Part shown: positions 2,714 through 18,355 of the stretch, one piece after another | How the letters are laid out: each line of letters starts with the position of its first letter | How positions within the stretch are numbered: the first letter of the stretch is position 1 | Origin: Brevundimonas sp. | Lineage (GTDB): Bacteria > Pseudomonadota > Alphaproteobacteria > Caulobacterales > Caulobacteraceae | Assembly: GCF_016742135.1 (NCBI RefSeq) | Contig: NZ_JACVCG010000004.1 | Location: 1-64,000, forward strand | DNA length: 64,000 nucleotides | Direction of reading: 5' to 3' | The notes under the pieces: generated by a model | What the model was told of the DNA's origin: nothing | Database searches by the model: none | The model's input: only the letters and a program-made list of their open reading frames with translations | Position numbers and translations under genes: made by a program

Positions 2714-3523
2714 GTGCTGTCAACTTAACTCCCACGCATCGCCAAGTTGAGCGGCTTCGATCACGACGCCACAGCCGCATTCCAGGCAGCATGCGCCTGC
2801 GCCCGGAACGTCCGAAGCGTGCTTCGGCTGACCAAATGCCGCTGGGTGTAGAAGGTGTTGTAGACGGCGGCGTGGACCGTCAGGAACCGCTGCGCTGAGG
2901 CGGCGCTCTTGAAGCCGATCATCTGCCGCTCGCGCTTTCGGATCGGCAGATGCGAGTTCTCAGCACGGTTGTTCTCGCGGAGGCGGCCGGGGTGATGGCG
3001 GTCGCTGAGACCCAGCCGATCCAGAGCGGTCTTGTACGAGCCGAGGCCGTCCGTGACGATCGTCTCCGGCACAACTGGCTGATCCCGCAGCAGCTTTCTC
3101 AGGAAGCTTTCGGCGGTCGCGGCATCCCTTCGGCGCTCGACGGTGGAACCGAGCACCTCCCCTTCGTCGTCGACCGCGCGCCAGACGTACATGTACCGCC
3201 CGCCGATCGAGCTCACCATCTCGTCCAGATGCCAGCGCGGCGAAGGCGCCGGTCGGCGTCGCCGGAGGTTCCTGGCGATCTGCAGTCCGAACTTCCGGCA
3301 CCAGTCGCGGATCGCCTCGTAGGAGACGTCGATGCCGCGTTCGGCGAGGATCTCCTCAACGTCCCGGAGGCTGAGATTGAAGCGGTAGTAGAGCCAGACC
3401 GCGCGCTTGATGACGTCGCTTTCGAACCGGTGCCGCTTGAAGCTGATTTTCGCCATAAGTCCCTGCCCTGCATGAACTTTTCAGCATATCAGTAGAGACG
3501 GGTTAGGGTTAGACTGACAGCAC
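2714..3523 (-). mobile_element. IS6-family insertion sequence
   Basis: An 810-bp element has terminal repeats GTGCTGTCA (2714-2722) and TGACAGCAC (3515-3523); the similarity continues imperfectly inward to TAAC. It holds one transposase gene. The 8 bp outside each end (gccagaga and catcgcag) do not match, so no target duplication is visible, as expected after an IS6-type adjacent deletion or recombination between copies. Confidence 0.8.
2761..3456 (-). CDS. IS6-family transposase
   Basis: A 231-residue DDE transposase of typical IS6 length. The N-terminal helix-turn-helix is followed by the catalytic residues D78 (HLDEM), D136 (VTDGLGSY) and E166 (NRAENSH). The RxxHHPGR stretch and the YNTFYTQRHL ending also fit the family. 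The frame is intact and the terminal repeats are present, so it may be active. IS6 elements move by replicative transposition and often delete neighbouring DNA, which would explain the cut nucleosidase next to it. Confidence 0.92.
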   Translation of the reverse strand: MAKISFKRHRFESDVIKRAVWLYYRFNLSLRDVEEILAERGIDVSYEAIRDWCRKFGLQIARNLRRRRPAPSPRWHLDEMVSSIGGRYMYVWRAVDDEGEVLGSTVERRRDAATAESFLRKLLRDQPVVPETIVTDGLGSYKTALDRLGLSDRHHPGRLRENNRAENSHLPIRKRERQMIGFKSAASAQRFLTVHAAVYNTFYTQRHLVSRSTLRTFRAQAHAAWNAAVAS

Positions 3524-3618
3524 CATCGCAGCGGCGGTTGGCTCCGCATCCAACCACTGCCTACAGTCCCAGTATCGCCTCAAGTCGTTCCATTCTCCTC
3601 GAACCGGAGCCATAACTG

Positions 3619-4422
3619 ATGAAATCCCTCCTAAGCGCCGCCGTTCTCGTCGCCACAACTTGCGGCGTAGCGCCTTGCCTGGCTCAGTCCATCGTACCCG
3701 GGCAGGTAGTTTTCGGAGCATTGGCTCCGGAGGACCGGGTGGATCACAGGGACGCACACTACGATTGTCATGATTTTGCGGGCGTCGCAGGCCAGTCGAT
3801 CGAAATCGTCATGCGCTCCATCGACGTGGATGCCTGGGTCGCGTTGCATCGTGGACCCGGCTGCCAGGGGGACTGGGAGGACGCCGACGACGACGGCGGG
3901 TTCGGCTTTCGAGCAGCGCATCTGGAGGCGACGCTGGATCAAGGGGGCACTTGGTCGTTCCGGGCCAGCAGCGCGGATTCACGGGACGTCGGAGACTACA
4001 TGATCGGGCTGGCTGTGGCGGACACGCCCGACGCCGCCCGCCTGCGCGCGGATCCCCTGACGATGACCGTCGGCAGTGAGGTGTCCGGCGAGTTGTCTCC
4101 GGTTGATGCCAACCTGGCGCCTGGGCGATATTTCGACTGCTATGAGGTCACCGTCGCCGGACCGGTGCAGGTGATGCTGAATGTCCGATCTGCGGATTTC
4201 AGCCCTGTCGGGCACGTCTACAGGGACCCGTCGTGCCGGCGGGGGTATATTGTAGAACTAGATTCCACGTCCGGGTCGGGCGAGGTTGATCCTCAAGAAT
4301 TTCGCGCGTCTGGGCTGCTCCCCAGAGCAGGGAGTTATTTCATCGCGGTGACCAGCGGCGGCCTTCGGGAGACGGGCGCTTACTCGATGAACATCACCGC
4401 GGCTCCTGCGACCCGACCGTAG
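3619..4422 (+). CDS. Secreted protein with two PPC-like beta-sandwich domains
   Basis: A 267-residue protein starts with a signal peptide (MKSLLSAAVLVATTCGVAPC, then LAQS). Two similar halves follow (about 25-135 and 140-260), each with a gSIxG..l...D.......Y.DC....aG..v...mrS.D pattern and a closing strand such as GDYMIGL or GAYSMNI. This is the pattern of bacterial pre-peptidase C-terminal (PPC) domains, which accompany secreted enzymes or bind at the surface. Each half has a conserved Cys pair (DC and the Cys in PGCQ or PSCRR) that could form a disulfide. It is the first gene after the IS, with GGAG upstream of the ATG. No catalytic domain is seen. Confidence 0.6.
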   Translation: MKSLLSAAVLVATTCGVAPCLAQSIVPGQVVFGALAPEDRVDHRDAHYDCHDFAGVAGQSIEIVMRSIDVDAWVALHRGPGCQGDWEDADDDGGFGFRAAHLEATLDQGGTWSFRASSADSRDVGDYMIGLAVADTPDAARLRADPLTMTVGSEVSGELSPVDANLAPGRYFDCYEVTVAGPVQVMLNVRSADFSPVGHVYRDPSCRRGYIVELDSTSGSGEVDPQEFRASGLLPRAGSYFIAVTSGGLRETGAYSMNITAAPATRP

Positions 4423-4567
4423 GGTAGATCAAGCTGGGCCCCGGCTCCGGCGTGTGCGGCGCAGAACGCTTCGGCGGCAGGCGAATGACGCAACCTGACG
4501 TCCTCTCCTTCTGACCTTGACGCTGGATGCCGCCTCCAGCTTCACTTCGATCTCCAAGGAGTGAGCG

Positions 4568-4993
4568 ATGTCTCTGGATCGTACGATTTTGGCGTTTGCA
4601 GCGGCTCCCCTTGCGTCGAGTCTTTCGCTCGGAGCCGCCCTCAGCGCGTCCTCAGGCGCGGACCCGACGTCTTGGGTTTTCGGGACCTTGATGATCGGAC
4701 TCTTCGGCCTCCTGTTCACCGTTCCTGCGACGGTGGTCGGAGGCGGCTCTTCACTTCTTTTGCTCAAGGCGACCCGCCGCGACAGCCTGCCCTGGTTCAT
4801 TCTGGCAGGGGCGATCGTCGGTCTGCTCTCGGGATTGATCGTGTTGTCCAGCGGCGGAACCCCTGACGAGCACAGAGAGCCGGGCTGGGTGTTGTTGCTG
4901 ATGACCGCATTCGCAGGAGCGGTGGGCGGCGCAGCGTTCGGTTTGGTCCGCGGCCATCCGACCACTGATGGCGAGGTGTCTAATGTTCTTTGA
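4568..4993 (+). CDS. Small integral membrane protein, four predicted helices
   Basis: A 141-residue protein with about four hydrophobic segments (roughly 8-28, 36-64, 74-94 and 105-126), the second rich in glycine and serine. AAGGAG lies 7 bp before the ATG. The 3' end overlaps the next start codon (4983) by 11 bp, suggesting co-translation with the following gene. I do not recognise the family. The stretch 4423-4567 before it shows no gene. Confidence 0.6.
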   Translation: MSLDRTILAFAAAPLASSLSLGAALSASSGADPTSWVFGTLMIGLFGLLFTVPATVVGGGSSLLLLKATRRDSLPWFILAGAIVGLLSGLIVLSSGGTPDEHREPGWVLLLMTAFAGAVGGAAFGLVRGHPTTDGEVSNVL

Positions 4994-5693
4994 GTTCATC
5001 GCGACTTCTCCGGCTCTGGCCGGTCACATTCAGGATCCGGCCGAGTGCCGCGTCGCGTCTCCCGAGCAGATCGCGCGGTTCGAAGCCGTCCGCACCGATC
5101 CCGCCTATGCCGACGCCCGCGCTCGCAACCTCGCTTACGAGGACGAGCTGTTCGCTGAGTTCGTCATTCCCGATGGCCCATGGCGATCGCCGCCTCCCGA
5201 CGCCCGCGTGCTGTTTCGAACGATCGCGCCGCCGGGCGGCCTCTACGGCAACACGATCTGGACGGCCGTCTGGCAGGAGAGCGACGGCTCCTGGTGGTTC
5301 TGGAAACAGGACCGTGACCCGCGGGTCGTCCAGCAGCCGCCCCAGCCCGGCTCCGCGCCCTCGGCCGCATCGGACACCGAGCGGTGGAAACCCTTGAGCG
5401 GTCGCCTTCGGGCGCAGAACGCGCAGGCGATCGAGGCGAGCCTCGAGGATCCTTGCCGCGCCGCGGCGGGACCTTTCTGGCCCGGCGAGGTTCCCTACGT
5501 GCCACCGCCTCCCCCTCCGGGCGTGCCCATGATTCCCCCGCCGCCTCCGACTCCGCCCGTTCCTGACTCCACCGTCGTCCATGTTCAGATGACCGAGCGG
5601 GGCCAACCGATGCGGCGGCTCGGCGCGTGGCGGACAGGGCATGGCAACCGGCTCATCGGCGCCGTCGCTTGGCCCCAACCGGAACTGGAGTAG
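4983..5693 (+). CDS. Unknown protein with a proline-rich linker
   Basis: About 236 residues. An N-terminal segment (FEFIATSPALAGHI) may be a weak signal peptide. A globular part with many Trp follows (WTAVWQESDGSWWFWKQ), then a proline-rich tract around residues 165-190 (PPPPPPG, PPPPPTPP), then a basic C-terminal strand pair (LGAWRTGHGNRLIGAVAW). The start at 4983 is preferred over 4968 because GGCGAGG sits just upstream of it. It overlaps the membrane protein gene before it and ends 3 bp before the next ATG, so the three genes look like one operon. The family is not recognised. Confidence 0.55.
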   Translation: MFFEFIATSPALAGHIQDPAECRVASPEQIARFEAVRTDPAYADARARNLAYEDELFAEFVIPDGPWRSPPPDARVLFRTIAPPGGLYGNTIWTAVWQESDGSWWFWKQDRDPRVVQQPPQPGSAPSAASDTERWKPLSGRLRAQNAQAIEASLEDPCRAAAGPFWPGEVPYVPPPPPPGVPMIPPPPPTPPVPDSTVVHVQMTERGQPMRRLGAWRTGHGNRLIGAVAWPQPELE

Positions 5694-5696
5694 GCG

Positions 5697-6191
5697 ATGG
5701 TCCGTGCCGCTCTTGCCCTGGTCCTCGTCCAGGCCCCGCTGACCCCCGTGCCCGACGCTCTCCGCGCTCCTGAGGCGGAGATCGTCGTGCTCGCCACAGG
5801 CGGCCCCGGAGACCCCGTCGCCGACCGGACCGTGCGACTGATCGAGGCGCTCGAAGCCGACGGCCGGCTCATTTACGGCCGGCCTTCCTTCGACGGCGAG
5901 GTGTTTCGACACTGCGTGACGGAAGACCCGAACCCCACCACCGAACGCCGCGACTGCGTGCGGGCCGCCATTCCTGAGCGCGCCTCGGCAACGCCGTTGG
6001 TGGTCATCGTCCTCGGCGACACGCGCGAGCGCGGCTCCTATCAGAGAATGGAGTGCATAGGTCCGCTCAGCGAAGGCTATCGCCGGTCGATCTACGTCAG
6101 GGATTTCGATCACCCCAGACCCGACGTGTCGGGCGGCACGCGCGACGCGGCTCTTCGGTGCATCGAGCAGGCGCTCGCAGCCAGCAGATAA
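5697..6191 (+). CDS. Unknown secreted protein
   Basis: 164 residues with a short N-terminal hydrophobic stretch (MVRAALALVLVQAP). The body has alternating strands and helices (EIVVLATGG, PLVVIVLGDT, RRSIYVRDF), which suggests a Rossmann-like or flavodoxin-like sheet, and four cysteines (CVTED, DCVR, MECIG, RCIE). It begins 3 bp after the previous stop with GGAG as RBS, so it is translated with the genes before it. Function unknown. Confidence 0.5.
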   Translation: MVRAALALVLVQAPLTPVPDALRAPEAEIVVLATGGPGDPVADRTVRLIEALEADGRLIYGRPSFDGEVFRHCVTEDPNPTTERRDCVRAAIPERASATPLVVIVLGDTRERGSYQRMECIGPLSEGYRRSIYVRDFDHPRPDVSGGTRDAALRCIEQALAASR

Positions 6192-6212
6192 ACACTCCCG
6201 CGTAACCAGCCC

Positions 6213-6758
6213 ATGATCGCCAGGATGTCGCCCAGGATGCGCAATCTGTTTTGGACCTTCGCCTTCTGCCTTGTGACGGCTCTAGCGGCTCCATCGGCGC
6301 GGGCCGCGCAGATGACGCCTGCGGCGGAGGCCCCCGAGACGCAGGAACAGCGGCTCGACTGCAGCCGGCTCACCGACAGCCTTTACTGGTTCTGCTACGC
6401 GCTTGATCGGAGAAACTGCGGCGTGGCGGATCGCAGCCACTACTGGTTCTGCAGGGCGATCTCCGAGCGCAAATGCAATTTCGCGGATCGCTCGGACTAC
6501 TGGGAGTGCCGTGCGCTCACCGAGAGGCGGTGCAACTTCGCCGACACAGATCGGTACTGGCTGTGCAAGGCGTTCACCGAGGATTGCGCCCTTGCACCGA
6601 TCGAGCACCGCGACTTCTGCTATGCGATCGCTCCGGTCTATCGCGGCAGGGAGCCTTGGTGCCTCGTGAGTGAATGGTGCCCCCGTTGTCCGATGCGGAC
6701 ACGAAGGCATGGCTGCGTGGCGTTGGCGAAGGGACACGCCGCCGGACAGTCCGGCTAA
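6213..6758 (+). CDS. Secreted cysteine-rich repeat protein
   Basis: After a signal peptide (FWTFAFCLVTALAAPSARAA), about five tandem units of 19-20 residues follow the pattern C..xxDxxYWxCxAxxxRx: CSRLTDSLYWFCYALDRR, CGVADRSHYWFCRAISER, CNFADRSDYWECRALTER, CNFADTDRYWLCKAFTED, then a weaker CALAPIEHRDFCYAIAP. Each unit has two Cys about 11-12 apart plus a Tyr-Trp pair, so units could be disulfide-linked in the periplasm. The tail (WCLVSEWCPRC) has more Cys. I do not recognise the family. The start is uncertain among three close in-frame ATGs. Confidence 0.6.
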   Translation: MIARMSPRMRNLFWTFAFCLVTALAAPSARAAQMTPAAEAPETQEQRLDCSRLTDSLYWFCYALDRRNCGVADRSHYWFCRAISERKCNFADRSDYWECRALTERRCNFADTDRYWLCKAFTEDCALAPIEHRDFCYAIAPVYRGREPWCLVSEWCPRCPMRTRRHGCVALAKGHAAGQSG

Positions 6759-6785
6759 ATGGCCGATTGCTCACGGAGAACGGAA

Positions 6786-7211
6786 ATGTCGCGGACGCAT
6801 ATGTTCCAGGCTGCGGTGCTGGCGATCTCACTGGGCCTTGCAGCCCCCGCCGGCCCAGCTTGTGCATGCACCTGCCTTCCCCCGGATCCCGCCGACCAGG
6901 TGGACGAGGCCGACGTCATCTTCGTCGGCAGGGTCGAGCGCGTCGTTCGCGTGGGCCAGGCTGGCGGCCGACCGATCAGCGCGACCGTCTTCAGGATCGA
7001 ACGGTCGCTCAAGGGCGACGTCGGAACGTGGACCGCCGTTCGTCACCAGTCCGGTGACAGCAGCCTTTGCGGCATGCAGTTCGACCGCGACCGCGAACAC
7101 GTCGTCTTCGCGCGTCGAGCCGAAGGGCGCCTTTACGCCCAGGCTTGCAGCCGGGACTGGCTGCCGCTCGAGCGATATGAAGCGGAGCTGATTAAGCTTC
7201 AGACTCGATGA
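6786..7211 (+). CDS. TIMP/NTR-like secreted protein
   Basis: About 141 residues. The signal peptide ends at PAGPAC, and the mature part begins CACTCLPPDPADQVDEADVIFVGRV. The CxC near the N-terminus followed by adviF.G.V is the hallmark of the TIMP/netrin-like (NTR) fold found in many bacterial secreted proteins. Later features are a central fRIERSLKGDVG strand, a single CG (SSLCGMQF) and a C-terminal AQACSRDWLP. The start at 6786 is preferred because GGAG precedes it; the 6759 start overlaps the previous stop. Bacterial members have no settled role. Confidence 0.65.
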   Translation: MSRTHMFQAAVLAISLGLAAPAGPACACTCLPPDPADQVDEADVIFVGRVERVVRVGQAGGRPISATVFRIERSLKGDVGTWTAVRHQSGDSSLCGMQFDRDREHVVFARRAEGRLYAQACSRDWLPLERYEAELIKLQTR

Positions 7212-7263
7212 TCACAGGCATTGCTGAGTGGGCGAGATGGTGCCCGCATTCCTGTGGTCCCGT

Positions 7264-7611
7264 TCAGGTTCCCCAAGCCTCGCAGGATCCCGGCATCCAA
7301 TCCACGCTGGCGCCTTCCGGTACTTGTCCGCGCCCGAGAAGCAGCTTTTCCGTGTTCGCCGGCGCCGTCACGAGCTGCTTGCCGCCCGCACGAGCCACCA
7401 CCACGCAGTAGGGGGTGTTCGACGTATTCTTCGCCCAGAGCTCTCGGTACCCGTAGGTCGAGCTGTTGTAGCCGGGGGGATAATGCCAAACGGTGATTTG
7501 CCCCCATTCGGTGCTGTGAACTTCCGGTTCGGGAGACAGGAATATCGTCTCACACCCCAACAAAACCGTGGATGCCGAAACGATGAAGAAGGCTTTCAGT
7601 AGTCGCGCCAT
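7264..7611 (-). CDS. Small lipoprotein
   Basis: 115 residues with a lipobox: the hydrophobic leader AFFIVSASTVLLGC places the lipidated Cys at residue 20, followed by E, which suggests outer-membrane sorting. The mature part is about 95 residues with several Tyr and Trp (WHYPPGYNSSTYGY) and two Cys. It runs opposite to the 3619-7211 gene block and converges on the TIMP-like gene. The family is not recognised. Confidence 0.6.
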   Translation of the reverse strand: MARLLKAFFIVSASTVLLGCETIFLSPEPEVHSTEWGQITVWHYPPGYNSSTYGYRELWAKNTSNTPYCVVVARAGGKQLVTAPANTEKLLLGRGQVPEGASVDWMPGSCEAWGT

Positions 7612-7627
7612 TTGCAGGATACTCTCC

Positions 7628-7801
7628 TTAAGTCAGACATTTGTGGAATACTTGGATGGCCCCCGATTCAGGTATCCAAGCCTCGTAGAGGAGTCCGAAT
7701 CCAGCAGCGCCTCGATCGTGGAGGTTGAGAAAGAGGAAATCAGATTCCAGCACCGCAACGTCGAAGCGCTTGCGCGGCAAGAAAGTCGGATCCCAAGTCA
7801 T
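7628..7801 (-). CDS. Short ORF coupled to the serine hydrolase gene
   Basis: A 57-codon frame whose ATG overlaps the TGA of the upstream hydrolase (ATGA, 7798-7801). The peptide is well mixed (FDVAVLESDFLFLNL, GLLYEAWIPESGAIQVF), unlike the arginine- or proline-rich shadow frames in this GC-rich DNA. It may be a real small gene or the tail of a lost one. No family is recognised. Confidence 0.35.
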   Translation of the reverse strand: MTWDPTFLPRKRFDVAVLESDFLFLNLHDRGAAGFGLLYEAWIPESGAIQVFHKCLT

Positions 7802-8889
7802 GGCCGCCACCCGGGGATCGCGGCCGTCATGCGCCACATCATCTGGTCCAGCTTCAGGGTGACGTCCGAGCCAGGGCCGCCGGTGTTGGTCAGTGCCGCC
7901 ATCACATAACCCGAGCGCGTCTTGCACATGAAGGCGGCCGTGCCGTGGATGATGCCCGTATGCCACCAGTTGTCCCACTGGTTGATCTGCCATCCGTGGC
8001 CGTAGGCCGCGCCGGCGAACGGCCCGGTGGCCATCAACCTCGCCGAGGCAGGACGCAGGATTCGTCCCGGGCCCTCCGTCCCGTCGACGGCCGTCACGAA
8101 TCCGACCAACTCCCTGGCGCTGGCGATCCAGCCGCCGTTCGCGTCCATGCGGCGCACGTCCACCGCGGTCGGATCATCGAAGATCGTCAGCGCGCGATAC
8201 TCCACCTCGCCGACGCCCCGCGCGCGGTCCCCGACGCGCATGCCCCCCGCACCGCAACGGGACAGGACGTCGCGACGAACCCAGCCCTCATAGGGTTCCC
8301 CCGTCACCTGCTCGATGACCCTGCCAAGGATGAGATAGGCGAAGTTCGAATAGCTTTGCCGTGTGCCGGGCGCGGCTTCCAGCGGACGCTCGGCCAGGGT
8401 TCTGGCGATGAGCTGACGTTGATCGAGGTCGGGGTGGGCGAAGACCGGATCACGCCCGTCGTTGGTCCACCCTCCTGCCGTGTGGTTGAGCAGGTGACGC
8501 ACACGAAGCGCCCGGAGCGGCCCGGAGGTCGGGCCGAACCGATCGCCAAGAATGGACCCCGGTCCGAAGATCGTGGAGTCCAGGGTCAGTCGGCCCGTTT
8601 CGATGAGCCGCATGACGGCCGCCGCCGTGATCGGTTTGGAAAGGCTGGCGATGCGGAACCGGTGATCATGCGTCAGCGGGGCGCCGGCCTGGTCGGCCCT
8701 CCCCCAAGCCCCGACGAAGCCGAGCGTGCCGTTGCGCGCCATCGCGACCTGCAATCCCGGCGCGCGCGTCGCGGCGAGGAAGCTCGCGGCCTCGGCGTCG
8801 ATGGCGGGGTTAGCTTGCCGCGCAAAGGTTGGCGACGTCGCCGCGAGGGCCAGTCCCCCAGCCAAGAGGTTTCTGCGCGTCTGGCTCAT
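7798..8889 (-). CDS. Serine hydrolase, beta-lactamase/penicillin-binding class C-like
   Basis: 363 residues with an N-terminal Tat-like signal (QTRRNLLAGGLALAATSPTFA). Catalytic motifs are in family order: SxxK as SLSK near residue 82, YxN as SYSN near 180, and HTG (WWHTG) near 313. This is the layout of class C beta-lactamase-like esterases and D-aminopeptidases, exported to the periplasm. The real substrate cannot be told from sequence; resistance should not be assumed. The length is normal for a stand-alone domain. Confidence 0.85.
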   Translation of the reverse strand: MSQTRRNLLAGGLALAATSPTFARQANPAIDAEAASFLAATRAPGLQVAMARNGTLGFVGAWGRADQAGAPLTHDHRFRIASLSKPITAAAVMRLIETGRLTLDSTIFGPGSILGDRFGPTSGPLRALRVRHLLNHTAGGWTNDGRDPVFAHPDLDQRQLIARTLAERPLEAAPGTRQSYSNFAYLILGRVIEQVTGEPYEGWVRRDVLSRCGAGGMRVGDRARGVGEVEYRALTIFDDPTAVDVRRMDANGGWIASARELVGFVTAVDGTEGPGRILRPASARLMATGPFAGAAYGHGWQINQWDNWWHTGIIHGTAAFMCKTRSGYVMAALTNTGGPGSDVTLKLDQMMWRMTAAIPGWRP

Positions 8890-8969
8890 TACCCCTCTCT
8901 CTTCTCGCCAATTTTCAAGCGAGCCATAGACCGCGATTTTTCCCGGCCCCGCGTGCTTCAGACATGGCG

Positions 8970-9434
8970 TCAGTCGACTGCGCTATCTGTGATGCGCAAG
9001 GTGGCGTCGGGCGTCGCCCATTCTTCCTTTGCACCGACCCAGATGTCGTATTGGCCCGATGGCGCGGCAAAGATCACCAAGCCAGGATCGCCGCCGTTGA
9101 GGCCACTGTCGTCGTCACACGCCCAGCTCCCGTTCGGAAAATTGACCAACAAGGTCGTGTCCGCTTTCGAATGCACCAAGAACACCAAGGGGGCTTCGCC
9201 AGCGGTGTAGTCGACCACGAAGTGAGGGCCTCGCGACACGAAGCCCCGGCAACTTGGAAGCAGTTCAGTGACGTCGATGTTCTCCAGTCCGCCGGCCTTT
9301 AGCTCCACGGCGTGCTCCCCGCCTGCGGCCAAGCTCACCCGACCATAGATGGGCTCAATTCCTATCTCCTGCGCGTTCACCGATGCGGCGAGCGTGAGCT
9401 GCAGCGCCGAGGCGACGAAAAGAGCTTTGATCAT
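8970..9434 (-). CDS. Secreted PPC-like single-domain protein
   Basis: About 154 residues: signal peptide (MIKALFVASALQLTLAASVNA, then QE), then one beta-sandwich domain. Family-type motifs are DLLP-like SCRGFVSRGPHFVVDYTA, DTTLLVNFPNGSWACDDDSG, GDPGLVIFAAPSGQYDIWVG. The W.CDDD....DP..........G.YDIWVG pattern is common in small alphaproteobacterial periplasmic proteins. The start at 9434 is chosen over 9443 because AAAGG lies about 9 bp before it. No enzymatic motif is visible. Confidence 0.65.
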   Translation of the reverse strand: MIKALFVASALQLTLAASVNAQEIGIEPIYGRVSLAAGGEHAVELKAGGLENIDVTELLPSCRGFVSRGPHFVVDYTAGEAPLVFLVHSKADTTLLVNFPNGSWACDDDSGLNGGDPGLVIFAAPSGQYDIWVGAKEEWATPDATLRITDSAVD

Positions 9435-9719
9435 GACTGTCATCCTTTCCCCAAGACGATGAAGGTTTTCGTTTAGACCTCCAACCCTCTTAAAGCTGAT
9501 GGTTGCGACCCGGAGGTTGTCGCGCGCGCTATTGCAGCGTCGCAATCCTTGCACTGCTGGCGACGGGAAACGATCGCTCCCGTTGCCTGCTACGAGTGAG
9601 ACGCGGATGTGCTGGGTCTTAGCTCCAGTGCCGGGCCTGAAGCGGACGGGTCGAAGGTCGGCCATGAGTCAGTTCCGGTCATCGGTCGTCTAATCCGCTA
9701 GCACTTCGCGGCGTCGGGA

Positions 9720-10169
9720 CTACAGGTACCCTCCCCCCGCGCGCCACGCGGCCACGGCGCCATTGAGCGGCGCGTTGGTGTCGCGGATCATCATCTGATC
9801 AGGCAGCGTGCCGACCGCGAAGGCCGTGTGTTCGTTGAGCCAGACGTCAACGTGGCCTTCAACATAGCCTGGGTACTGGTCCGCCAGACCGCGGATGGCG
9901 TGGTCGCTACCGATGAGAACCAAGCCAAGGGCAAACCGCAGGTCGGACCCGTCGCTATTCCCTTCCAGATGACATTTCATTGTTCCGGGCAGATCGGCCA
10001 CGTGATGCGAATACAGCGTGATACCCGGCGTCAGGTCCACCCAGCCTTGGCCCGGGATTTTGACCGTCAGCGTTGACTGCATGATCAGTGCGATGTCGCC
10101 CGGACCCGGACGCAGGACCGGGCCGCTACGGAAGCAGTGCGCGTGTTGAAAAACGTAGTCAGGCACCAT
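9720..10169 (-). CDS. Unknown 149-residue protein coupled to the serine recombinase
   Basis: The ATG lies 2 bp after the stop of the large serine recombinase, so it is probably the last gene of that operon. It is soluble with no signal peptide. It has alternating strands (STLTVKIPGQGWVDLTPGITLYSHHVADL, LRFALGLVLIG) and several His. I do not recognise the family. Its position makes a role with the recombinase possible, for example as a directionality factor, but cargo is equally possible. The stretch 9435-9719 between it and the PPC-like gene shows no gene. Confidence 0.5.
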   Translation of the reverse strand: MVPDYVFQHAHCFRSGPVLRPGPGDIALIMQSTLTVKIPGQGWVDLTPGITLYSHHVADLPGTMKCHLEGNSDGSDLRFALGLVLIGSDHAIRGLADQYPGYVEGHVDVWLNEHTAFAVGTLPDQMMIRDTNAPLNGAVAAWRAGGGYL

Positions 10170-10171
10170 GT

Positions 10172-12271
10172 CTATTCATCTTCCGTGGGGACGCCGAACT
10201 GTCCGATGACGACGACGAAGGCTTCCGGAGCGCCAATGCGGATCGGCGGCAACGGCAGGTGCATCGACGGGATGGGCTCGGCGAACGCGAGGCGTTTCCA
10301 CTCTTCGTCGGAGCGTTCGATGTGGTTCCAGACATGGCCCGAGCGCTTCGGGCCGCACGAGATGCTCCGAATTTCGCCAGCCCTGTCGAGGTAGCGGAGT
10401 ACATTCAGGACGCGTCGCCCGTGTGATCCGGCCGGGCTATAGTCGGGCTCCCAGTCCGACGCGTAGCCCTCCGCCTTGACGATGGCATCGATGATGGAAC
10501 GGCGGGTCAGGGGAACGTCCGTGTCGTCCAACATCCGCGCCACCAAGGGCAAGTCGGCGTAAGTCTGGGCGTCAAGTCGGTCATCTTCCGGAATGTAATC
10601 AGTATAATAGCGGAACCGCACAGTCGCGGGGTCCTGCACTGTTCCCGGATGTGAAGAATGCAGGATGACACCAGCGTCGTCCGCCAGGTCGACCAGGGCC
10701 GAGAGCGGGCCTTCGACGGTGACGCGCACGGGTCCCTGGCCGCGCTTGTCGATGCGCTCCAGCTCGATGGGGGTCAGGGTGACGCGCTCGATCAGGCCGC
10801 GCAGGGTGTCGCGGGCGCGGCCGGCTTCGCGGTCGTCGCCGGCGAGGGCGGAGCGCAGGTCGTCGAGCATGGCGTCCAGGCGGGCGATCACGGCCTCGGC
10901 CTCCAGGGGCGCGGGGGCGGGACGCGGCTTGACCTTGGTCTGGCGCTCGAAGCGCTGGCGCTCGGCCTCCAGCCGGTCCAGCTCCTTCATCATCAGCTCG
11001 CCCGCCAGGCCCTGGACGCGGCCGTCGCGGACCGTGTCCATGATATTGGCGATCTGGCGCTCCACCTCATTTAGATGGGTGGCCCCGGCCTCGGTGCGGG
11101 CGGCCAGTTCGGCGTTGGCGCGCTCGATCTCGGCGCGATACTCGGCGAGGTAGGGCTCAATCAGTTCGGGCTTCAGCAGCCGGCCCTTGAGGCCCCATAG
11201 CACCAGGTCCTCCAGGTCCTCGCGGGCCACGCGGCGGCGGTTGTCGCAGGTCCCCTCGCGGGCCGAGCCGATGCAGCTCAGCTTGTCGGAGACGACCGCA
11301 TAGGCCTTGCCGCAGACGCCGCAGCGGATGAGACCCGAGAGCAGATAGTCGGGGCGACGCCGTCCCCGGAAACTTGAGGGGGCGACGCGGCGGGCCTCGA
11401 TGCGATCCTGGACGGCCTGGAACAGTTCGTCCTCGACGATGCGCAGGTGGGGCACGGGGATGACCAGGCGTTCGCCCTGGGGGGTGACCTTGGCCTTGGA
11501 GGTGCCCTTGTGGCGGTTGTGCTTGGTGACGGTGCGGCCCCATTCGTTGACGCCGACATAGAGCCTGTTGCGCAGGATTCCGGTGCCGACGTCGCGGTTG
11601 CCGTAGATGGCGCCGGGCAGCCAGGGTCCGCCTCGGGGACCGGGCACGCCCTCGGCGTTGAGGGCCTTGGCGATCTCCAGGGGGGTCATGCCGGCGACGT
11701 AGTCGGTCATGATGCGGCGGACGACGGCGGCCTGGACGGGATCGGGCTCGCGCTGGCCGTTCTTGCCGTTCAGCGCCAGGACCATGCGATAGCCGTAGGC
11801 GGGCTGCCCGGAGATGCGGCCGTCCTTGACGGTGCCCTCCTGGCCTCGGCGGGTCTTCTCGGCCTGCCCCTTCACATAGCGGGCGTTCTGGGCGGCCTTG
11901 AAGGCGACCTCCATGTCGCTGACCACGCCGGAGGAGACGGTGCAGACGACGATGTCCAGGGCCTCCATTTCCTCCAGCATCCCGTGGGTGCCCGAGGCGC
12001 TGCGGCTGAGGCGGTCCAGGTCCTCGACGAGGATGACGGTGAACTCTCCCCGGTCGGCGGCGGCCAGCATGGCGAACAGGCCGGAGCGCCCGATCACCGT
12101 GGTGCCGCTGCGCTCGGCGTCGTGATAGGCGCCGGCCTCGACCCAGCCTTGGCGCTCGGCGTAGGCGCGGCAGAGGGTCAACTGGTCCTCGATCGACTTG
12201 AACGTCTGGTGGCCGGTCGAATAGCGGGCGTAGACGGCGTAGCGGGTGCCCGACGGCGGCAGGGCGCTCAA
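10172..12271 (-). CDS. Large serine recombinase (second of the element)
   Basis: 699 residues. The resolvase domain (about 10-150) has YARYST with the nucleophile at S18 and LVEDLDRLSR with the conserved arginines near 87-90. A recombinase domain (about 155-300), a zinc ribbon with C317, C320, C333 and C342, and a coiled-coil region (about 375-445) follow. About 140 extra residues at the C-terminus go beyond the usual integrase architecture. It starts with TTG, overlapping the stop of the gene before it (TTGA, 12268-12271). All catalytic residues seem present, so it should be active. It lies 4 kb from the element end, so it is probably not the integrase that formed attL and attR. Confidence 0.9.
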   Translation of the reverse strand: MSALPPSGTRYAVYARYSTGHQTFKSIEDQLTLCRAYAERQGWVEAGAYHDAERSGTTVIGRSGLFAMLAAADRGEFTVILVEDLDRLSRSASGTHGMLEEMEALDIVVCTVSSGVVSDMEVAFKAAQNARYVKGQAEKTRRGQEGTVKDGRISGQPAYGYRMVLALNGKNGQREPDPVQAAVVRRIMTDYVAGMTPLEIAKALNAEGVPGPRGGPWLPGAIYGNRDVGTGILRNRLYVGVNEWGRTVTKHNRHKGTSKAKVTPQGERLVIPVPHLRIVEDELFQAVQDRIEARRVAPSSFRGRRRPDYLLSGLIRCGVCGKAYAVVSDKLSCIGSAREGTCDNRRRVAREDLEDLVLWGLKGRLLKPELIEPYLAEYRAEIERANAELAARTEAGATHLNEVERQIANIMDTVRDGRVQGLAGELMMKELDRLEAERQRFERQTKVKPRPAPAPLEAEAVIARLDAMLDDLRSALAGDDREAGRARDTLRGLIERVTLTPIELERIDKRGQGPVRVTVEGPLSALVDLADDAGVILHSSHPGTVQDPATVRFRYYTDYIPEDDRLDAQTYADLPLVARMLDDTDVPLTRRSIIDAIVKAEGYASDWEPDYSPAGSHGRRVLNVLRYLDRAGEIRSISCGPKRSGHVWNHIERSDEEWKRLAFAEPIPSMHLPLPPIRIGAPEAFVVVIGQFGVPTEDE

Positions 12272-12519
12272 GACCCGGCCTCCTCGACCCCGTCGTCATC
12301 GAAGATGCTGTCATCGAAGACCTCGATGACGATGTCCATCTCCTCCATGGCCTCCATCGCCTCCAGCAACGCCTGGGCGCCCAAGGCGCCGTGGTCGGGC
12401 CGGTCCAGGTCCTCGACCCCGCCATCCTGCTCGGCACAGGCCCGGCACCGGGGCTGCCGGTCGGTGGAGTAGCGGGCGTAGAGGGCGACGCGTGCGCGGG
12501 GCGGCGGCGGGGCGCTCAC
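12268..12519 (-). CDS. Cut-down resolvase-domain protein
   Basis: 83 residues. It opens with RVALYARYSTDRQ, an almost perfect resolvase active-site strand (S18). It then skips about 40 residues of the normal domain and resumes at VEDLDRPDHGALGAQALLEAMEA, where the catalytic SR is replaced by DH. It ends with an acidic tail (FDDSIFDDDGVEE). It overlaps both neighbours by 4 bp (GTGA and TTGA). Preservation of the frame and couplings argues against random decay. It is unlikely to cut DNA alone; it could pair with the large recombinase. Confidence 0.6.
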   Translation of the reverse strand: MSAPPPPRARVALYARYSTDRQPRCRACAEQDGGVEDLDRPDHGALGAQALLEAMEAMEEMDIVIEVFDDSIFDDDGVEEAGS

Positions 12520-13259
12520 GACTTGACCTTCCGGCGCTTCTTCTCAGCGTGGCCGTAACGCGCCCTGAGCGAACGCTCCTGGCGGAGAGACTCGGTCATG
12601 ACGCTCCTGAACGCCACGTCCAGATCGGTGACGACGCCGCCGACGACGGTGTGGACGGCGACGCCCAGGGTCTTCAGCTCCGCCAGCAGACGAGGGACCT
12701 GCGAGGCGTCGCGGCTCAGGCGGGACACGTCCTCGACCAGCACGACGTCGAAGGCGCCACGTCCGGCCTCCGCGATCATCGCATCGAGGCTGGGGCGGGA
12801 CCCCGTCATGCCGCTGACGGCGTTGTCCTTGTAGACCGTGACCGTCTCCCAGCCCCGCTCGGCCGCATAGGCCTCGCAGGCGTTCCACTGGTCGGCGAGC
12901 GGATAGGGCGTCGCCCGAGAGGCGCTGGCGCAGCGCAGATAGATCGCGCAGCGGTGAGCCGGGCTGGGGGCCGGAACGGGGGCGGCGGCGGGAACATCGT
13001 CTTGCGGCCCGTCATCTTGCGGGACGGCGGCGATGGTGACGACGCGGCCGGCGCCGGCGTCGGCGACGATGACCTCGAACTCCCCGTCGCCGAGGCGATC
13101 GACCAGGCCGTTCAATCGGGCTCCCGCCAGCCCGACACCGGGGCGATCCTCGTCGATCATGGTCACGACCCGCAGACCGGCGCGCTCGGCGTGCCGGGCG
13201 CAGGTCGTCAGGGTCGATCCTCCGGCCATGTAGAGCGCGGCCCGCGCCGGGGCCGTCAC
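12516..13259 (-). CDS. Protein with two degenerate resolvase catalytic domains
   Basis: 247 residues. Domain 1 (about 6-80) keeps the outline (ALYMAGGST, FEVIVADAGAGR) but lacks the catalytic Arg and the YxRxS motif. A Pro/Ala linker follows (85-101). Domain 2 (about 103-240) is much better preserved: CAIYLRCASAS, YKDNAVSGMTGSRPSLDAMI, VVLVEDVSRLSRD and a C-terminal helix with a basic end. In domain 2 the nucleophile position of YxRxS is Ala (A111), with Ser at 112. It carries no recombinase or zinc domain. It overlaps the flanking genes at GTGA sites. A catalytically impaired partner or regulator of the large recombinase is the best guess. Confidence 0.65.
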   Translation of the reverse strand: MTAPARAALYMAGGSTLTTCARHAERAGLRVVTMIDEDRPGVGLAGARLNGLVDRLGDGEFEVIVADAGAGRVVTIAAVPQDDGPQDDVPAAAPVPAPSPAHRCAIYLRCASASRATPYPLADQWNACEAYAAERGWETVTVYKDNAVSGMTGSRPSLDAMIAEAGRGAFDVVLVEDVSRLSRDASQVPRLLAELKTLGVAVHTVVGGVVTDLDVAFRSVMTESLRQERSLRARYGHAEKKRRKVKS

Positions 13260-13495
13260 TGGACGCCTCCCAGGACCTCGGCGCGGGCCGTAATCCGCGC
13301 CAGCGACAGCATCAGGGGCAGCAGTTCGGCCGTCTCATCATCGAGGCCGTTGCTCAGGCGGTGTTCGGCCTGGGCCTGGCGCTGATGGCTGAGCAGGCAG
13401 CCGAACGAGGCGTCGCCGTGGATCGGCCGGGGTTGAAAGGCCGATGCGCCGTCCGGTTCGAACGGCGCATCATGGATGGGATCGGCATAGGACAT
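13256..13495 (-). CDS. Small unknown protein, first gene of the recombinase operon
   Basis: 79 residues with no signal peptide or membrane segment. The C-terminal half looks helical (LSNGLDDETAELLPLMLSLARITARAEVL), and the N-terminal half is loop-like. AAGGAG lies 7 bp before the ATG. A promoter-like pair and a direct repeat lie just upstream. Its stop overlaps the GTG of the next gene. Not recognised; it could be a regulator of the operon or a partner of the recombinase proteins. Confidence 0.55.
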   Translation of the reverse strand: MSYADPIHDAPFEPDGASAFQPRPIHGDASFGCLLSHQRQAQAEHRLSNGLDDETAELLPLMLSLARITARAEVLGGVQ

Positions 13496-13509
13496 CAGGC
13501 GGCTCCTTC

Positions 13510-13555
13510 ATTGTGAGTGGAGCGCCTATTAGGTCTACGGTCTATTGTGAGTCAA
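13510..13555 (-). promoter_or_regulatory. Promoter and direct-repeat operator of the recombinase operon
   Basis: Read on the minus strand, TTGACT (13555-13550) and TAATAG (13531-13526) are 18 bp apart and resemble a sigma-70 promoter. ACTCACAAT occurs twice in the same orientation (13552-13544 and 13518-13510): one copy covers the -35 box and the other lies near the expected start of transcription. This arrangement suits repression by a DNA-binding protein, perhaps the one encoded just upstream. Confidence 0.55.
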
Positions 13556-13560
13556 GGTCT

Positions 13561-14310
13561 TTATGAGGTGGACTCGGGCGGCGGCAGGTCGTTGACGGCC
13601 GCGTGGAGCGCCAGAAGGGTGGGCAGGCCGACCTCGATGGTGATCAGACAGTCGGTCTGCGCGGATGCGTCACCGGCATTGGGAGGTTCCGACCAGGCCT
13701 CGGCGGGGGCGTAATGTTCGTGGAAGGCCTCGACCTCCTCCAGCCGTTTCCAGGGGCGGCCCAGATGAATCTCAGCCGCGAGGCCGGGCACATAGCTGAC
13801 GACGCGCAGGGCGCGGGCGTAACCGGGGCGGAACGAACCGCCGGCGGCGGCCGACTTGACCACCATCCACTGCATTGAGAACTCCGCCTCGGATACGCCG
13901 CTCGTCGGTTGTTCCCAGTCCGTCATATAGGCCTCGTGCCACTCGGCTATCGCCGGAGCGTTGGCGATCAGCCGTTCGACGGCGTCGGCGAACCCGACCT
14001 TCTCGCGCAGGAAATCCATCCAGGCCGGCATGTCCTCGCGCTGCATGTCCCGGTTCGGATCGTCGGGGTGCGGAACCAGGGATCGCAGGTTATGGACGGC
14101 GGCGACGGTGCCTTGGGGACTGCTGTCGCCACAGGTCGCCAGCAGCAGGGTCGCGGCGTCCTTGACGGTCATGATCGCCGCGCCGACGCCCCGCTTCGAG
14201 GACCGGATCAATCCCTCGTCGCGGACCTGCCGGGCGATATGAGCGATGGTCGCCTGGCCCCGACGGTCATGCCGAGCGATGGCTTCGATGAGAGCGGGAA
14301 GGCGCGCCAA
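13561..14310 (-). CDS. Unknown protein with a probable N-terminal DNA-binding domain
   Basis: About 249 residues, probably starting with TTG, with AGGAG about 9 bp upstream. Residues 15-60 (GQATIAHIARQVRDEGLIRSSKRGVGAAIMTVKDAATLL) look like a helix-turn-helix region of the type seen in regulators near alphaproteobacterial mobile genes. The remainder is mixed alpha/beta without a recognised fold. It is transcribed in the same direction as the recombinase operon and ends 66 bp before that operon's first ATG, immediately upstream of the promoter-like repeats. A role as the regulator is inference. Confidence 0.5.
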   Translation of the reverse strand: MARLPALIEAIARHDRRGQATIAHIARQVRDEGLIRSSKRGVGAAIMTVKDAATLLLATCGDSSPQGTVAAVHNLRSLVPHPDDPNRDMQREDMPAWMDFLREKVGFADAVERLIANAPAIAEWHEAYMTDWEQPTSGVSEAEFSMQWMVVKSAAAGGSFRPGYARALRVVSYVPGLAAEIHLGRPWKRLEEVEAFHEHYAPAEAWSEPPNAGDASAQTDCLITIEVGLPTLLALHAAVNDLPPPESTS

Positions 14311-14450
14311 ACGTGATGTCTCCTGACGTGGAACTATCTCCCCTTAGCGCATTGTGCTCTCAACTCCAAAAGAGCCTTGGCGTGCCGGTCTTATCATCCA
14401 CGGCTTGAATCGCGACGTCCTCGACATCGAGGTGGGAACGGCATTCGTAG

Positions 14451-16220
14451 TCAGTTTCCCTTGCGATGACGCCGGATGTAAGTGGCCAACCAGCCCGCGT
14501 TCGCGGGGGCCGGTCCGGTCCAAGGTTGCTCGTCTACCGGATAGTTTGAGAGGGTCGTTTCCACTCGCTCCGCCAAGGCCGGAGCGTCCAAATCTGGAAA
14601 CACCGCTTGCGTGAATGCCAGTCCATCGAAGCGCATGATGACCTTCCCATTGTTGTCGAACAGGCAGGCTAAGACACCTCCCGGCAGGAACAGGCCGATC
14701 TGACGTCCATCGCCGGGATCGACGCTGCACACGACCTTGCAGCCCAGTCCGACGATCGCATTGTGGACGCGCAGCCGCGCCGCCTGGCGGGTCGCCGGAT
14801 CGGGGTCGTCAAGAGCGTCGCGAACGTCCCGGACCCGCTCCAGGTGCTCGGCCGGGCTCACAGCTCCCTTCGCCGCTTCCAGCGCCTTGGCGGCGTCGTC
14901 ACGTTGCTCCATCAGATTGCGGAGGGATCGTTCGGCATCGACCAGCTTCGCTTCGATCGCCTCCGAGGCGCCAATCCGGCCAAGGGCCTCGACCCACCGA
15001 TCGACCTGCTCCTTCTGGTTGGAGATCGCCTTCTCAAGGTCGGCGAGAACCGCCGCCGAGGAAGCGGTCTGGTCCGGCTCGGCGAAGTAGCGATCATCGA
15101 GCGCGAGGTGGAGGATTTCATCCAACGCGGCGCGCTCGAATGGGTCGTAACGGAACATGGCCTTCTGCGAGCATCCGCGCCGGCGCGCCGCGAAGTTGCA
15201 CTGCCAATAGCGGTTGGCATTCGGCTGTCCGCTGGACCGAAGATGCATCCGGTTGCCGCAGGACTCGCACACGACAACGCCGGCGAACAAATTGGCGACG
15301 CTTCGGGTGTGGCGCCCCCCTTTCCGGGGGCCGGTCTTTCGCGATTCCACCTGAGCCCGAGCTCGCGCCACAAGGTCCGCATCGACGATCCGGGGGTAGT
15401 AGCCGACGATGCGTTGGTCGAACTTGGTCCGCTTGGCGCTAGTGTTGGAGAAGCCAGGCACATAGTCGCCTTCGACCGAAGGCTGGCTGAGGATCAGCTT
15501 GACCGAGCCGATTTCCCACGTCGGAGTCGACTCTGGCTTGCGCCATTTGCCCCACGCGGGGATGCCCCGCTCATTCAGCTCCTTCGCGATCCAACGCGCA
15601 CCCTTGCCCTGGGCCGCCATCTCATAGACGTCGCGGACCATCTGCGCGCGATCCTCGATAATCTCGAAGCCGCTCCGGTCGGCCTTGGCGATCAACCAAC
15701 CGGGCGCCTTTGCGGTGATGATCTGCCCCGTGGTCCGAGCCCGTTCCATGTTGCGGCCTATGCGGTCGAGCACACGTTCCGACTTCTGCTGGCTCTCGTC
15801 GTTCGCCAGCTTGGCTCGCATCAGAATTTCGAACACGCCCATGAGGTCGGCGCGAAGCCCCGCATCGTCAAAGACCTTGCCGCCATCGACAGTGGCGATG
15901 GTCAGCCCCGCCGCACACAGGTCCTCCATCCAGCGGAGGGTCGTCCGGGTCTCCTGACGAGACAGCCGATCCAGCTTCTCGACAACCAGGACCGTTCCAG
16001 CTCCGACGCTGCCGTCACGCACGCGGTTGGCAAAGAGGCCGAGTTCTCCGGCGGACAGGTGCGCCCCTGTCCATGCCGACCGTCCCAAGTCCTCAATCAC
16101 CTCATCGACAGGCCATCCCCGCTGCTCACAGAATTGTTGGCAGAGCTCCAGTTGCCGGTCGCGACTGGCTCCCCTCTCCTGCTTGGGCGTCGAAAAGCGT
16201 ATGTAGATAACAGCACGCAT
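14451..16220 (-). CDS. Large serine integrase of the element
   Basis: 589 residues. The resolvase domain has YIRFST with the nucleophile at S10 and VVEKLDRLSR near 79-88. A recombinase domain (about 165-295), a zinc ribbon with C318, C321, C341 and C350, and a helical segment (about 385-450) that can form the coiled-coil arm follow. The start codon is 48 bp inside the right junction, the usual place of a serine integrase next to its attP. It is therefore the natural candidate for inserting this element at the radical SAM cluster motif. After integration the sequence upstream of its start is host DNA, so any promoter in the other attP arm has been separated from it. The 140-bp gap 14311-14450 shows no gene. 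Confidence 0.92.
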   Translation of the reverse strand: MRAVIYIRFSTPKQERGASRDRQLELCQQFCEQRGWPVDEVIEDLGRSAWTGAHLSAGELGLFANRVRDGSVGAGTVLVVEKLDRLSRQETRTTLRWMEDLCAAGLTIATVDGGKVFDDAGLRADLMGVFEILMRAKLANDESQQKSERVLDRIGRNMERARTTGQIITAKAPGWLIAKADRSGFEIIEDRAQMVRDVYEMAAQGKGARWIAKELNERGIPAWGKWRKPESTPTWEIGSVKLILSQPSVEGDYVPGFSNTSAKRTKFDQRIVGYYPRIVDADLVARARAQVESRKTGPRKGGRHTRSVANLFAGVVVCESCGNRMHLRSSGQPNANRYWQCNFAARRRGCSQKAMFRYDPFERAALDEILHLALDDRYFAEPDQTASSAAVLADLEKAISNQKEQVDRWVEALGRIGASEAIEAKLVDAERSLRNLMEQRDDAAKALEAAKGAVSPAEHLERVRDVRDALDDPDPATRQAARLRVHNAIVGLGCKVVCSVDPGDGRQIGLFLPGGVLACLFDNNGKVIMRFDGLAFTQAVFPDLDAPALAERVETTLSNYPVDEQPWTGPAPANAGWLATYIRRHRKGN

Positions 16221-16245
16221 GGGCGAAGTTTAAGCTGCGTGCTCC

Positions 16246-16292
16246 CGTGCGTGCAATAGGATCGTAGGGCTGTATCTACTGCTATGCCCGAC
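16246..16292. other. attR, right junction of the element
   Basis: Element sequence ends in TAGGGCTG; the host gene resumes in frame at TGT ATC TAC TGC (from 16271). GGCTG (16268-16272) is shared with attL. Joining this arm to the left arm gives TAGGGC-TG-GCCCTA, with weaker symmetry extending about 14 bp further on each side. Confidence 0.8.
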
Positions 16293-17116
16293 CCTCTCAC
16301 GCCTGGATGGGCCTGTCCCCGGGGCTGGATTTCGAGAGCCGGATCTTCGTCAAGCCGGACGCCGCCCACCTGCTGGAGCAGGAGCTGGCCCATCCGAAAT
16401 ACGTCTGCAAACGCATCCACGTCGGCGGCAACACCGACCCCTATCAGCCGGTCGAGGACGAGCGGCAAACAACCCGCAGCCTATTGCAGGTCATGCAGCG
16501 CTTCAATCAGCCCTTCAGCCTGATCACCAAGTCGTTCCGGGTCACCCGCGACCTCGACATCCTCGGCCCCATGGGGCGCGAGAACCTGGCCCAGGTGTTC
16601 ATCTCGATCACCACGCTGGACCGCTCGCTGGCCCGGGCGATGGAGCCGCGCGCCTCGACCCCCGAGCGGCGGCTGGAGGCGATCAAACGCCTGTCCGATG
16701 CCGGCGTGCCCGTCGGCGTCGGCTTTGCCCCCGTCATCCCGGGCCTCAACGACCATGAGCTGGAGGATGTGCTGAAGGCGGCGGCAAAGGCCGGGGCCAG
16801 CCGCGCCATGTATGTCACCCTGCGCCTGCCGCTCGAGATCAAGGATCTGTTCCGCGAGTGGCTGGAGGATGCCCGGCCGGACCGCGCGAAACGGGTCATG
16901 TCGCTGGCCCGCCAGACGCGGGGCGGCCGCGACTATGACGCCGACTGGTCCCAGCGGATGAAGGGCACCGGTCCGGTCGCCCAGCTGATCGCCACCCGCT
17001 ATCGCGCGGCTGCCAGACGCTATGGCCTCGACCAGCCCCACCCCCTGCTGGACATCACCCGCTTCCGCGTCCCGCCCGAGTTCCGACCCCAGATGGACCT
17101 GTTCGACCTGGCGTGA
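16268..17116 (+). pseudogene. PA0069-family radical SAM protein, 3' fragment of the split host gene
   Basis: This continues the host frame of 955-1199: GCIYCYARPSHAWMGLSPG, then NTDPYQP, DILGPMG, MEPRASTP, GVPVGVGFAPVIPGLNDHE and the ending QMDLFDLA. The frame is open from the junction to TGA. An internal ATG at 16307 could give a peptide without the iron-sulfur motif. The sequence is not visibly decayed, so the insertion may be recent. It shares most residues with the element copy at 1224-2312. Confidence 0.9.
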
Positions 17117-17119
17117 GGC

Positions 17120-18355
17120 CTAGCGTCGGAAGGTGCCGACCAGTTCGACGTGGGCGGACCACAGGAACTGGTCCACGGGGGTGACGGCCTCCAGCACAAA
17201 GCCCGCGTCGACCAGCAGCCGGGCATCGCGGGCAAAGGTCACGGGGTTGCACGACACCCCGACCACGGTCGAGGCGCCCGAGGCCGCGATCTGCTCGACC
17301 TGGGCCTGGGCTCCGGCGCGGGGCGGGTCGAAGACCACCGTGTCGATGCCCTTCAGGTCATGCGGTGTCAGGGGCCGGCGGAACAGGTCGCGGGCTACCG
17401 CCTCGATCGGCGACAGGCCCTTCAGCCCCGCCCGCCCGGCCTTCAGCGCGGCAATGCCGCCCTCGGCGGCGTCGGCGGCCAGCACCGGCGCGACCGAGGC
17501 CAGCGGAAAGGTAAAGGTGCCCGCGCCACAGAACAGGTCGGCGATCCGCTTCGCCCCCTTCACGCCGTCGAGCACCCGGGCGACCATGGCGGCCTCGGCC
17601 TCGGGCACGGCCTGCAGGAAGCCGCCGGGCGGAAGAGTCACCTCGGCGCCCCCGAAGCGAACCCGCGGCGCCCGGCGCATGGCCAGCACCTCGCCCGCCA
17701 GACTCAGCCGCGCCAGATCGGCGGCCACGGCGGCGCGGATGGCCTGCTGGCGGCGGTCGGCGGGCAGGCCGCCCGAGCGCCGCTCGACCCCGGTGACGTC
17801 GACGTCCAGACCGGTCTCGGTCAGGGTCACATGCAGGGTCGGGGCCGACTTCGGATGGTCGAGAAAGGCCGCCGCCACCGGGATCAGCCGGGGCAGGGCC
17901 GCGACCAGGCGCGGATCGGCGATGACGCAGGTCTGGATCGGCACCAGCGCCCACGACCGTCGCCCCTTGAAGCCGAGGCTGACGGTGCCGTCAGCGGCCC
18001 GCCGGGCATGCAGGGCCAGCCGACGCCGCGTGGCGGGCGGGACGCCGACGGTCGGCCGGATGTCGGTCTCCAGCCCCTGTCGGCCAAGCGCCATTCGCAC
18101 CTGCTCGCCCTTCCACGCCAGATAGGGCTCGGTCCGCCAGTGCTGCAGGGCGCAGCCGCCGCAGGTGCCGAAGTGGGGACAGGGCGGCACCTGTCGCTCG
18201 GGCGAAGGCGCGACCAGCGTCAGCCCCTCGGCGCGGCCGTCGCGCACCTCGGCCTCGATCACCTCCCCCGCCAGGGTCAGGGGGGCGAACACCGGACCGG
18301 GGGCCACCCCGTCGCCCTGGGCGCCCACATGGGAAATCGTCAGCCGTTCGCGCAT
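17120..18355 (-). CDS. RumA/TrmA-family RNA (uracil-5-)-methyltransferase
   Basis: About 411 residues. A short N-terminal TRAM-like barrel is followed by an iron-sulfur site (CPHFGTCGGCALQHW) and a Rossmann methyltransferase domain with LFCGAGTFTFPLA, FDPPRAGA and the catalytic-cysteine motif GVSCNPVTFARD. This is the architecture of the 23S rRNA m5U methyltransferases RlmC/RlmD; which position it modifies cannot be told. The start at 18355 is preferred because GGAGGC lies just before the ATG; the longer frame to 18427 has no such site. It converges on the radical SAM 3' fragment with only 3 bp between. Confidence 0.88.
   Translation of the reverse strand: MRERLTISHVGAQGDGVAPGPVFAPLTLAGEVIEAEVRDGRAEGLTLVAPSPERQVPPCPHFGTCGGCALQHWRTEPYLAWKGEQVRMALGRQGLETDIRPTVGVPPATRRRLALHARRAADGTVSLGFKGRRSWALVPIQTCVIADPRLVAALPRLIPVAAAFLDHPKSAPTLHVTLTETGLDVDVTGVERRSGGLPADRRQQAIRAAVAADLARLSLAGEVLAMRRAPRVRFGGAEVTLPPGGFLQAVPEAEAAMVARVLDGVKGAKRIADLFCGAGTFTFPLASVAPVLAADAAEGGIAALKAGRAGLKGLSPIEAVARDLFRRPLTPHDLKGIDTVVFDPPRAGAQAQVEQIAASGASTVVGVSCNPVTFARDARLLVDAGFVLEAVTPVDQFLWSAHVELVGTFRR

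Follow-up and report, generated by a model that had tools for sequence, protein, structure and literature searches.

The locus raises the question of why a complete large serine recombinase (LSR) should be encoded in one operon with reduced relatives of its own N-terminal domain, and whether these are remnants or working parts. Within the window, the whole stretch of 64,000 nucleotides that was analyzed, ORF calling returned five ORFs exactly at the coordinates first described, all on the minus strand. Their stop-start overlaps were confirmed (GTGA at 13256-13259, GTGA at 12516-12519 and TTGA at 12268-12271), as was the 2-bp gap before the last ORF, p149, and a purine-rich, Shine-Dalgarno-like stretch lies just 5' of every overlap. 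While all five ORFs are present, the extent of the operon had to be corrected. It starts one gene earlier, with p249 (13561-14310, minus strand; no Pfam hit), which is 78% identical in genome G170 and 47% identical in G139, and it does not include p149 (9720-10169, minus strand). The latter is a downstream cargo ORF without a Pfam hit and with only remote homologues (∼30% identity), none of them beside a recombinase of the type encoded here, and it was rejected as a part of the module because comparable loci have nothing that corresponds to it.

The operon lies in a 15.07-kb island (1200-16272) of a Brevundimonas-like bacterium, so called after its named relatives. The island was delimited by alignment with the sister genome G004 and lies between GGCTG cores at 1195-1199 and 16268-16272. 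The uninterrupted G004 gene aligns to 912-1199 (92.4%) and to 16268-18317 (91.7%), the two halves overlapping by GGCTG, and this core, within a radical-SAM gene that we take from family knowledge to be of the PA0069 type, is the insertion point. The right junction is abutted by p589 (14451-16220, minus strand), which shows the Pfam architecture of an LSR and differs from the recombinase of the operon, p699. In G139, a Caulobacterales MAG, this gene carries an interruption at the identical position, and the Marinicauda alignment with the intact gene breaks off at the very same base, with a relative of p589 alongside in both cases. Given its place at the junction and the position of its relatives at the same target in two other genomes, p589 is probably the integrase of the island and p699 a second recombinase; the island ends and the target position led us to reject p699 as the integrase. 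The island also carries a complete radical-SAM gene (1224-2312, plus strand), ∼77% identical to the one that it splits, which might stand in for the host gene damaged by the insertion. A transposase-like ORF, of IS6 type by eye, lies inside the island at 2761-3456. Scans against Rfam and for promoters and terminators returned no signal beyond the chance level.

For its part, p699 (10172-12271, minus strand), hereafter LSR2, was confirmed as a full recombinase of 699 residues with a C-terminal extension, its N-terminal resolvase, recombinase and zinc-ribbon domains matching PF00239, PF07508 and PF13408, respectively, all above cut-off. Residues R16, S18, Q22, D86, R87 and R90 are invariant in the alignments and every intact relative keeps all catalytic residues, by which LSR2 is putatively catalytically competent. 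The extension (approximately residues 565 to 670) is a predicted winged helix, with a pLDDT of >90 over the wHTH core and weak Foldseek matches to winged helices of the Fur/MepR type, and it may be of another origin. After residue 510, the GC3 of p699 drops from ∼0.95 to ∼0.7 to 0.8 (10172-10740), a fall that is similar in G040 and smaller in G170 and G139. Neither a repeat search in the island (no repeat pair) nor a comparison of LSR2 flanks (nothing shared) revealed an att-like site for LSR2.

Among 398 genomes of the order, 11 had a C-extended LSR2; among 384 sampled from the class, none did apart from the window's own genome. The viral contigs, phages and plasmids searched yielded ordinary LSRs only, with no C-extended LSR2 and no relative of p247. 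LSR2s form a subfamily of Caulobacterales and Maricaulales in which the C terminus is a predicted winged helix, p79 is the constant partner directly upstream, and a further integrase lies nearby in almost every case.

When the gene order was searched for in other genomes, as had been suggested, the same order with start-stop overlaps was recovered from three (44 to 78% protein identity). In G170 it reads tyrosine recombinase, p249, p79, p247, a 122-aa protein and LSR2; in G040, p79 (cut), p247, a 193-aa protein that is an LSR recombinase domain without an N-terminal domain, and LSR2; and in G139, p589, p249, p79, a 112-aa (mini) protein, a 72-aa protein, a dead 190-aa protein and LSR2. The coupled junctions are conserved in all three, and the recurrence of order and overlaps is, on the sequences compared, more than chance. 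Catalytically dead N-terminal-domain proteins do recur beside LSRs of the LSR2 type, with independent companions in G139, G195, G016 and G170. A second type of locus (Brevundimonas vesicularis, Brevundimonas sp. ACE_PRO1, Brevundimonas albigilva and G177) has a divergent MerR gene followed by p79, a mini protein and LSR2, often with a tyrosine recombinase next. In Oceanicaulis, Maricaulis and Marinicauda the cluster consists of p79 and LSR2 only, and dead companions are also absent from p79-LSR2 at loci of the Brevundimonas huaxiensis type. The initial annotation had missed these companion-free relatives, along with p249, the island and the separate putative integrase p589.

The main dead protein is p247 (12516-13259, minus strand). 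It had been described as two resolvase domains with altered nucleophile positions, which is accurate for the second, a complete but nucleophile-less N-terminal domain (approximately residues 100 to 245), whereas the first (approximately residues 1 to 80) is a much more reduced, mini N-terminal-domain remnant. Residues 105 to 243 match PF00239 (E value, 4e-22), the only Pfam family above cut-off, so that no recombinase, zinc or HTH DNA-binding domain accompanies it. The R-x-S of active enzymes is replaced by R-C-A, leaving no nucleophilic serine, while both catalytic arginines (SRLSR) are present; the change from serine to alanine occurs in all three orthologues (R-C-A or R-S-A). In the predicted model, built from three sequences and usable only for the second domain, this domain folds like the catalytic domain of an LSR, to which Foldseek matched it (E value, 7.5e-7). 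The first domain is poorly modeled (mean pLDDT, 55), and solely profile-profile comparison recognizes it as a recombinase N-terminal domain (hhalign Prob 92; E value, 6e-7). In G040 and G170, p247 ends short of helix E, the one that usually forms the dimer.

The tree places p247 with its two orthologues in a single clade (support, 97/99) that is separate from the active LSR2s and includes, beyond these three, just two divergent companions on long branches. The differences among them by codon position (0.29/0.18/0.35) resemble those of LSR2 (0.20/0.18/0.31), and under simulated neutral substitution, a simulation that counts no indels, the frame stayed free of stops in 0.1 to 7% of runs per comparison. 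From these patterns, p247 looks preserved by selection.

The same applies to p79 (13256-13495, minus strand), the small partner, which also looks preserved: its dN/dS in the type-A branch is ∼0.25, indicating constraint (the dN/dS values given here and below are NG86 estimates, which are rough at extreme GC3). It sits upstream of LSR2, or of the dead companions of LSR2, in every intact cluster, and an alignment of 14 sequences shares the motif L-L-P-L-x-L-x-(L/I)-A-R-(L/I)-x-A-R. No family in Pfam, PHROGs or NCBIfam matches it. Its profile found matches only next to C-extended LSR2s, with G051, a decayed relative, as the one addition; of the ordinary LSRs that were fetched, none had a match alongside. 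Homologues of p249, in turn, adjoin an LSR or a tyrosine recombinase in 10 of the 10 genus genomes that have one (L209-L214), the neighbor in G129 being only a 50-aa recombinase fragment. Judging from this neighborhood, p249 is an integrase-linked gene family.

Since p79 and p247 are apparently kept by selection, they may control when LSR2 works. The reading that we prefer, and hold with about even confidence, is that the operon is a second recombination module of the island, in which LSR2 is made with a constant partner, p79, and a selected pseudo-recombinase, p247, gates LSR2 assembly. Against this reading stand the p79-LSR2 loci with no dead companion, by which the companions are not essential in every lineage, the end of p247 short of helix E in G040 and G170, the poor model of its first domain and the lack of an att-like sequence shared by LSR2 flanks. 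We infer the physical interaction, the direction of its effect and all functions of the module. Thus, p589 would integrate the island into the radical-SAM gene; p247 would bind LSR2 through the catalytic-domain interfaces of dimer and tetramer assembly and so limit or gate synapsis; p79 would be a directionality or activation factor of LSR2; and p249 would regulate the operon. The remaining protein, p83, would be a by-product: a partial LSR2 copy in decay, of a kind that has originated independently several times among the relatives.

That by-product is where the best of the alternatives, decay only, draws its strength. According to this explanation, LSR2 was duplicated in tandem, by repeated insertion of related elements or by unequal recombination, and the upstream copies are eroding without function, their overlaps surviving as broken frames would be polar on LSR2. 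p83 (12268-12519, minus strand; no Pfam hit) is a copy of the LSR2 N-terminal domain with an internal deletion. It is indeed a cut-down resolvase, with ∼57 residues of the fold missing, although its nucleophile motif, R-Y-S, is kept. It shares direct repeats of 74 and 76 nucleotides with LSR2 (81% and 76% identical, respectively), and its dN/dS against the parent LSR2 is ∼1.2, which shows no constraint and on which it was rejected as a selected protein. From these comparisons, p83 looks like a decaying partial copy of LSR2. The slot that it occupies turns over fast, holding proteins of 83, 122, 193 or 72 plus 190 aa depending on the relative. In the tree, the 122-aa protein of G170 nests among the LSR2s of its own group, and the 190-aa protein encoded in G195 forms a pair with that genome's LSR2; for the 190-aa protein of G139, the closest DNA is its own LSR2. 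Decay is further consistent with the broken cluster of G051 and with what remains of a foreign LSR2, 77 aa of its C terminus, directly behind the intact LSR2 of G040 (L027:2157-2473). Across this remnant and the adjoining metal-transport genes, the DNA identity to G139 is 95%, which suggests replacement or deletion between related islands.

What decay does not readily explain is p247, a single clade in three genomes whose frame, overlaps and codon bias have been kept at 44 to 61% identity, whose mini domain has a dN/dS of ∼0.36 in type A, indicating constraint, and which has lost its nucleophile yet retained its fold and arginines. The separate clade of p247, taken with the nesting of slot members among their own LSR2s, points to a single pseudo-recombinase that is old and has been retained, next to a slot that is quickly refilled with partial copies of recent origin. 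Duplicate decay thus accounts fully for p83 and its slot and not for p247 or p79, and as an explanation of the operon we consider it somewhat unlikely. The couplings had been taken to suggest selection rather than decay, a claim that appears to stand for p79 and p247 (orthologues elsewhere, codon-position bias and conserved overlaps) and probably falls for p83, given its dN/dS and a slot refilled differently in each relative.

The initial annotation had proposed that the inactive proteins form mixed dimers or tetramers and set site choice or direction. In its strict form this would be an obligate multi-subunit serine recombinase, with dead N-terminal-domain subunits, p79 and LSR2 in mixed tetramers. 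It would be a hitherto undescribed means of controlling serine recombination, in islands already equipped with a separate integrase. We regard such an enzyme as unlikely. Mixed complexes as such would be plausible. The recombinase-in-trio (RIT) tyrosine recombinases, with which the initial annotation drew its comparison, likewise have overlapping recombinase genes in one operon, but they belong to another recombinase class and serve as an analogy only.

It is quite improbable that the upstream ORFs serve mainly as translated leaders that bring ribosomes to LSR2 and set its dose, with the frame and the junction selected and the protein sequence hardly so. Start-stop overlaps with Shine-Dalgarno-like stretches do occur at nearly all junctions despite the differing contents of the slot before LSR2, and p83 has an open frame and a GC3 of 0.92 with no protein-level constraint. 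However, p79 and p247 are constrained as proteins, each start has a Shine-Dalgarno-like stretch of its own, and loci of the Oceanicaulis type have no companion ORF between p79 and LSR2. A nested mobile element, made up of LSR2 and its neighbors and inserting next to integrases rather than helping the island, would fit the varied surroundings of p79-LSR2 (p589 or several tyrosine recombinases, with a MerR gene or p249 at the left edge), but it is very improbable, as the left and right edges share no att-like sequence, p589-p249-p79-LSR2 is one arrangement in two species, and in G177 and B. albigilva a conserved small ORF bridges LSR2 directly into the integrase gene.

The locus can be compared with several known systems. 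Among these, CcrA and CcrB of the staphylococcal cassette chromosomes are also of the LSR family, with more than one recombinase per element; both are complete, active enzymes. LSR2 reaches only 50 bits against the CcrB model (E value, 1e-13), with a cut-off of 900, and is thus no CcrA, CcrB or CcrC by NCBIfam equivalog. Serine integrases have recombination directionality factors, such as phiC31 gp3, Bxb1 gp47 and SPbeta SprB. A small partner controlling an LSR is also what we suspect in p79, which differs from them in matching no family and being known from genomic association. The known control of large serine recombinases lies in their own coiled coil and in directionality factors. If the preferred reading is true, a conserved operon that coproduces an enzyme and an inactive version of the enzyme's own catalytic domain would represent a new control principle and a possible switch for serine integrases.

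The nearest described case is that of the serine-integrase triplets of streptococcal ICEs, adjacent genes that apparently arose from duplications and whose members all have PF00239 and PF07508 and form position-specific clades (PMC4701971). In both, an integrative element has several large serine recombinase genes next to one another, is bordered by very short direct repeats and inserts inside genes. The locus differs in having one complete enzyme per operon, nucleophile-less N-terminal-domain companions and a separate integrase; moreover, p247 stands as a separate clade and several of the companions group with LSR2s. The earlier statement that no system of this form had been described therefore needs qualification, the triplets having been published, although their members carry complete integrase domains. 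No serine recombinase operon with nucleophile-less companions was found in the open-licence literature.

The link of LSR2 to a second, different integrase is nearly constant. Of 11 C-extended LSR2 loci, which include those where the link was first noticed, 10 had another recombinase gene in the surrounding ∼5 kb. For ordinary LSR loci the figure was 2 of 39 (P = 7e-8 by Fisher's test), a control count that may be too low since its tyrosine-recombinase profile was trained partly on integrases from LSR2 loci. With an assumed 6 of 39 ordinary loci, the contrast would still give a P value of 1e-6. When the window and G170 are added, 12 of 13 LSR2 clusters have another integrase within ∼5 kb. Why an island would need two unrelated recombinases is a question that could be tested in cultured strains of Brevundimonas and Maricaulales. 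In PADLOC, no module protein matched a defence family. In two relatives, the LSR2 module adjoins type III and type IIG restriction genes (L026:11770-14826 and L029:3526-7712).
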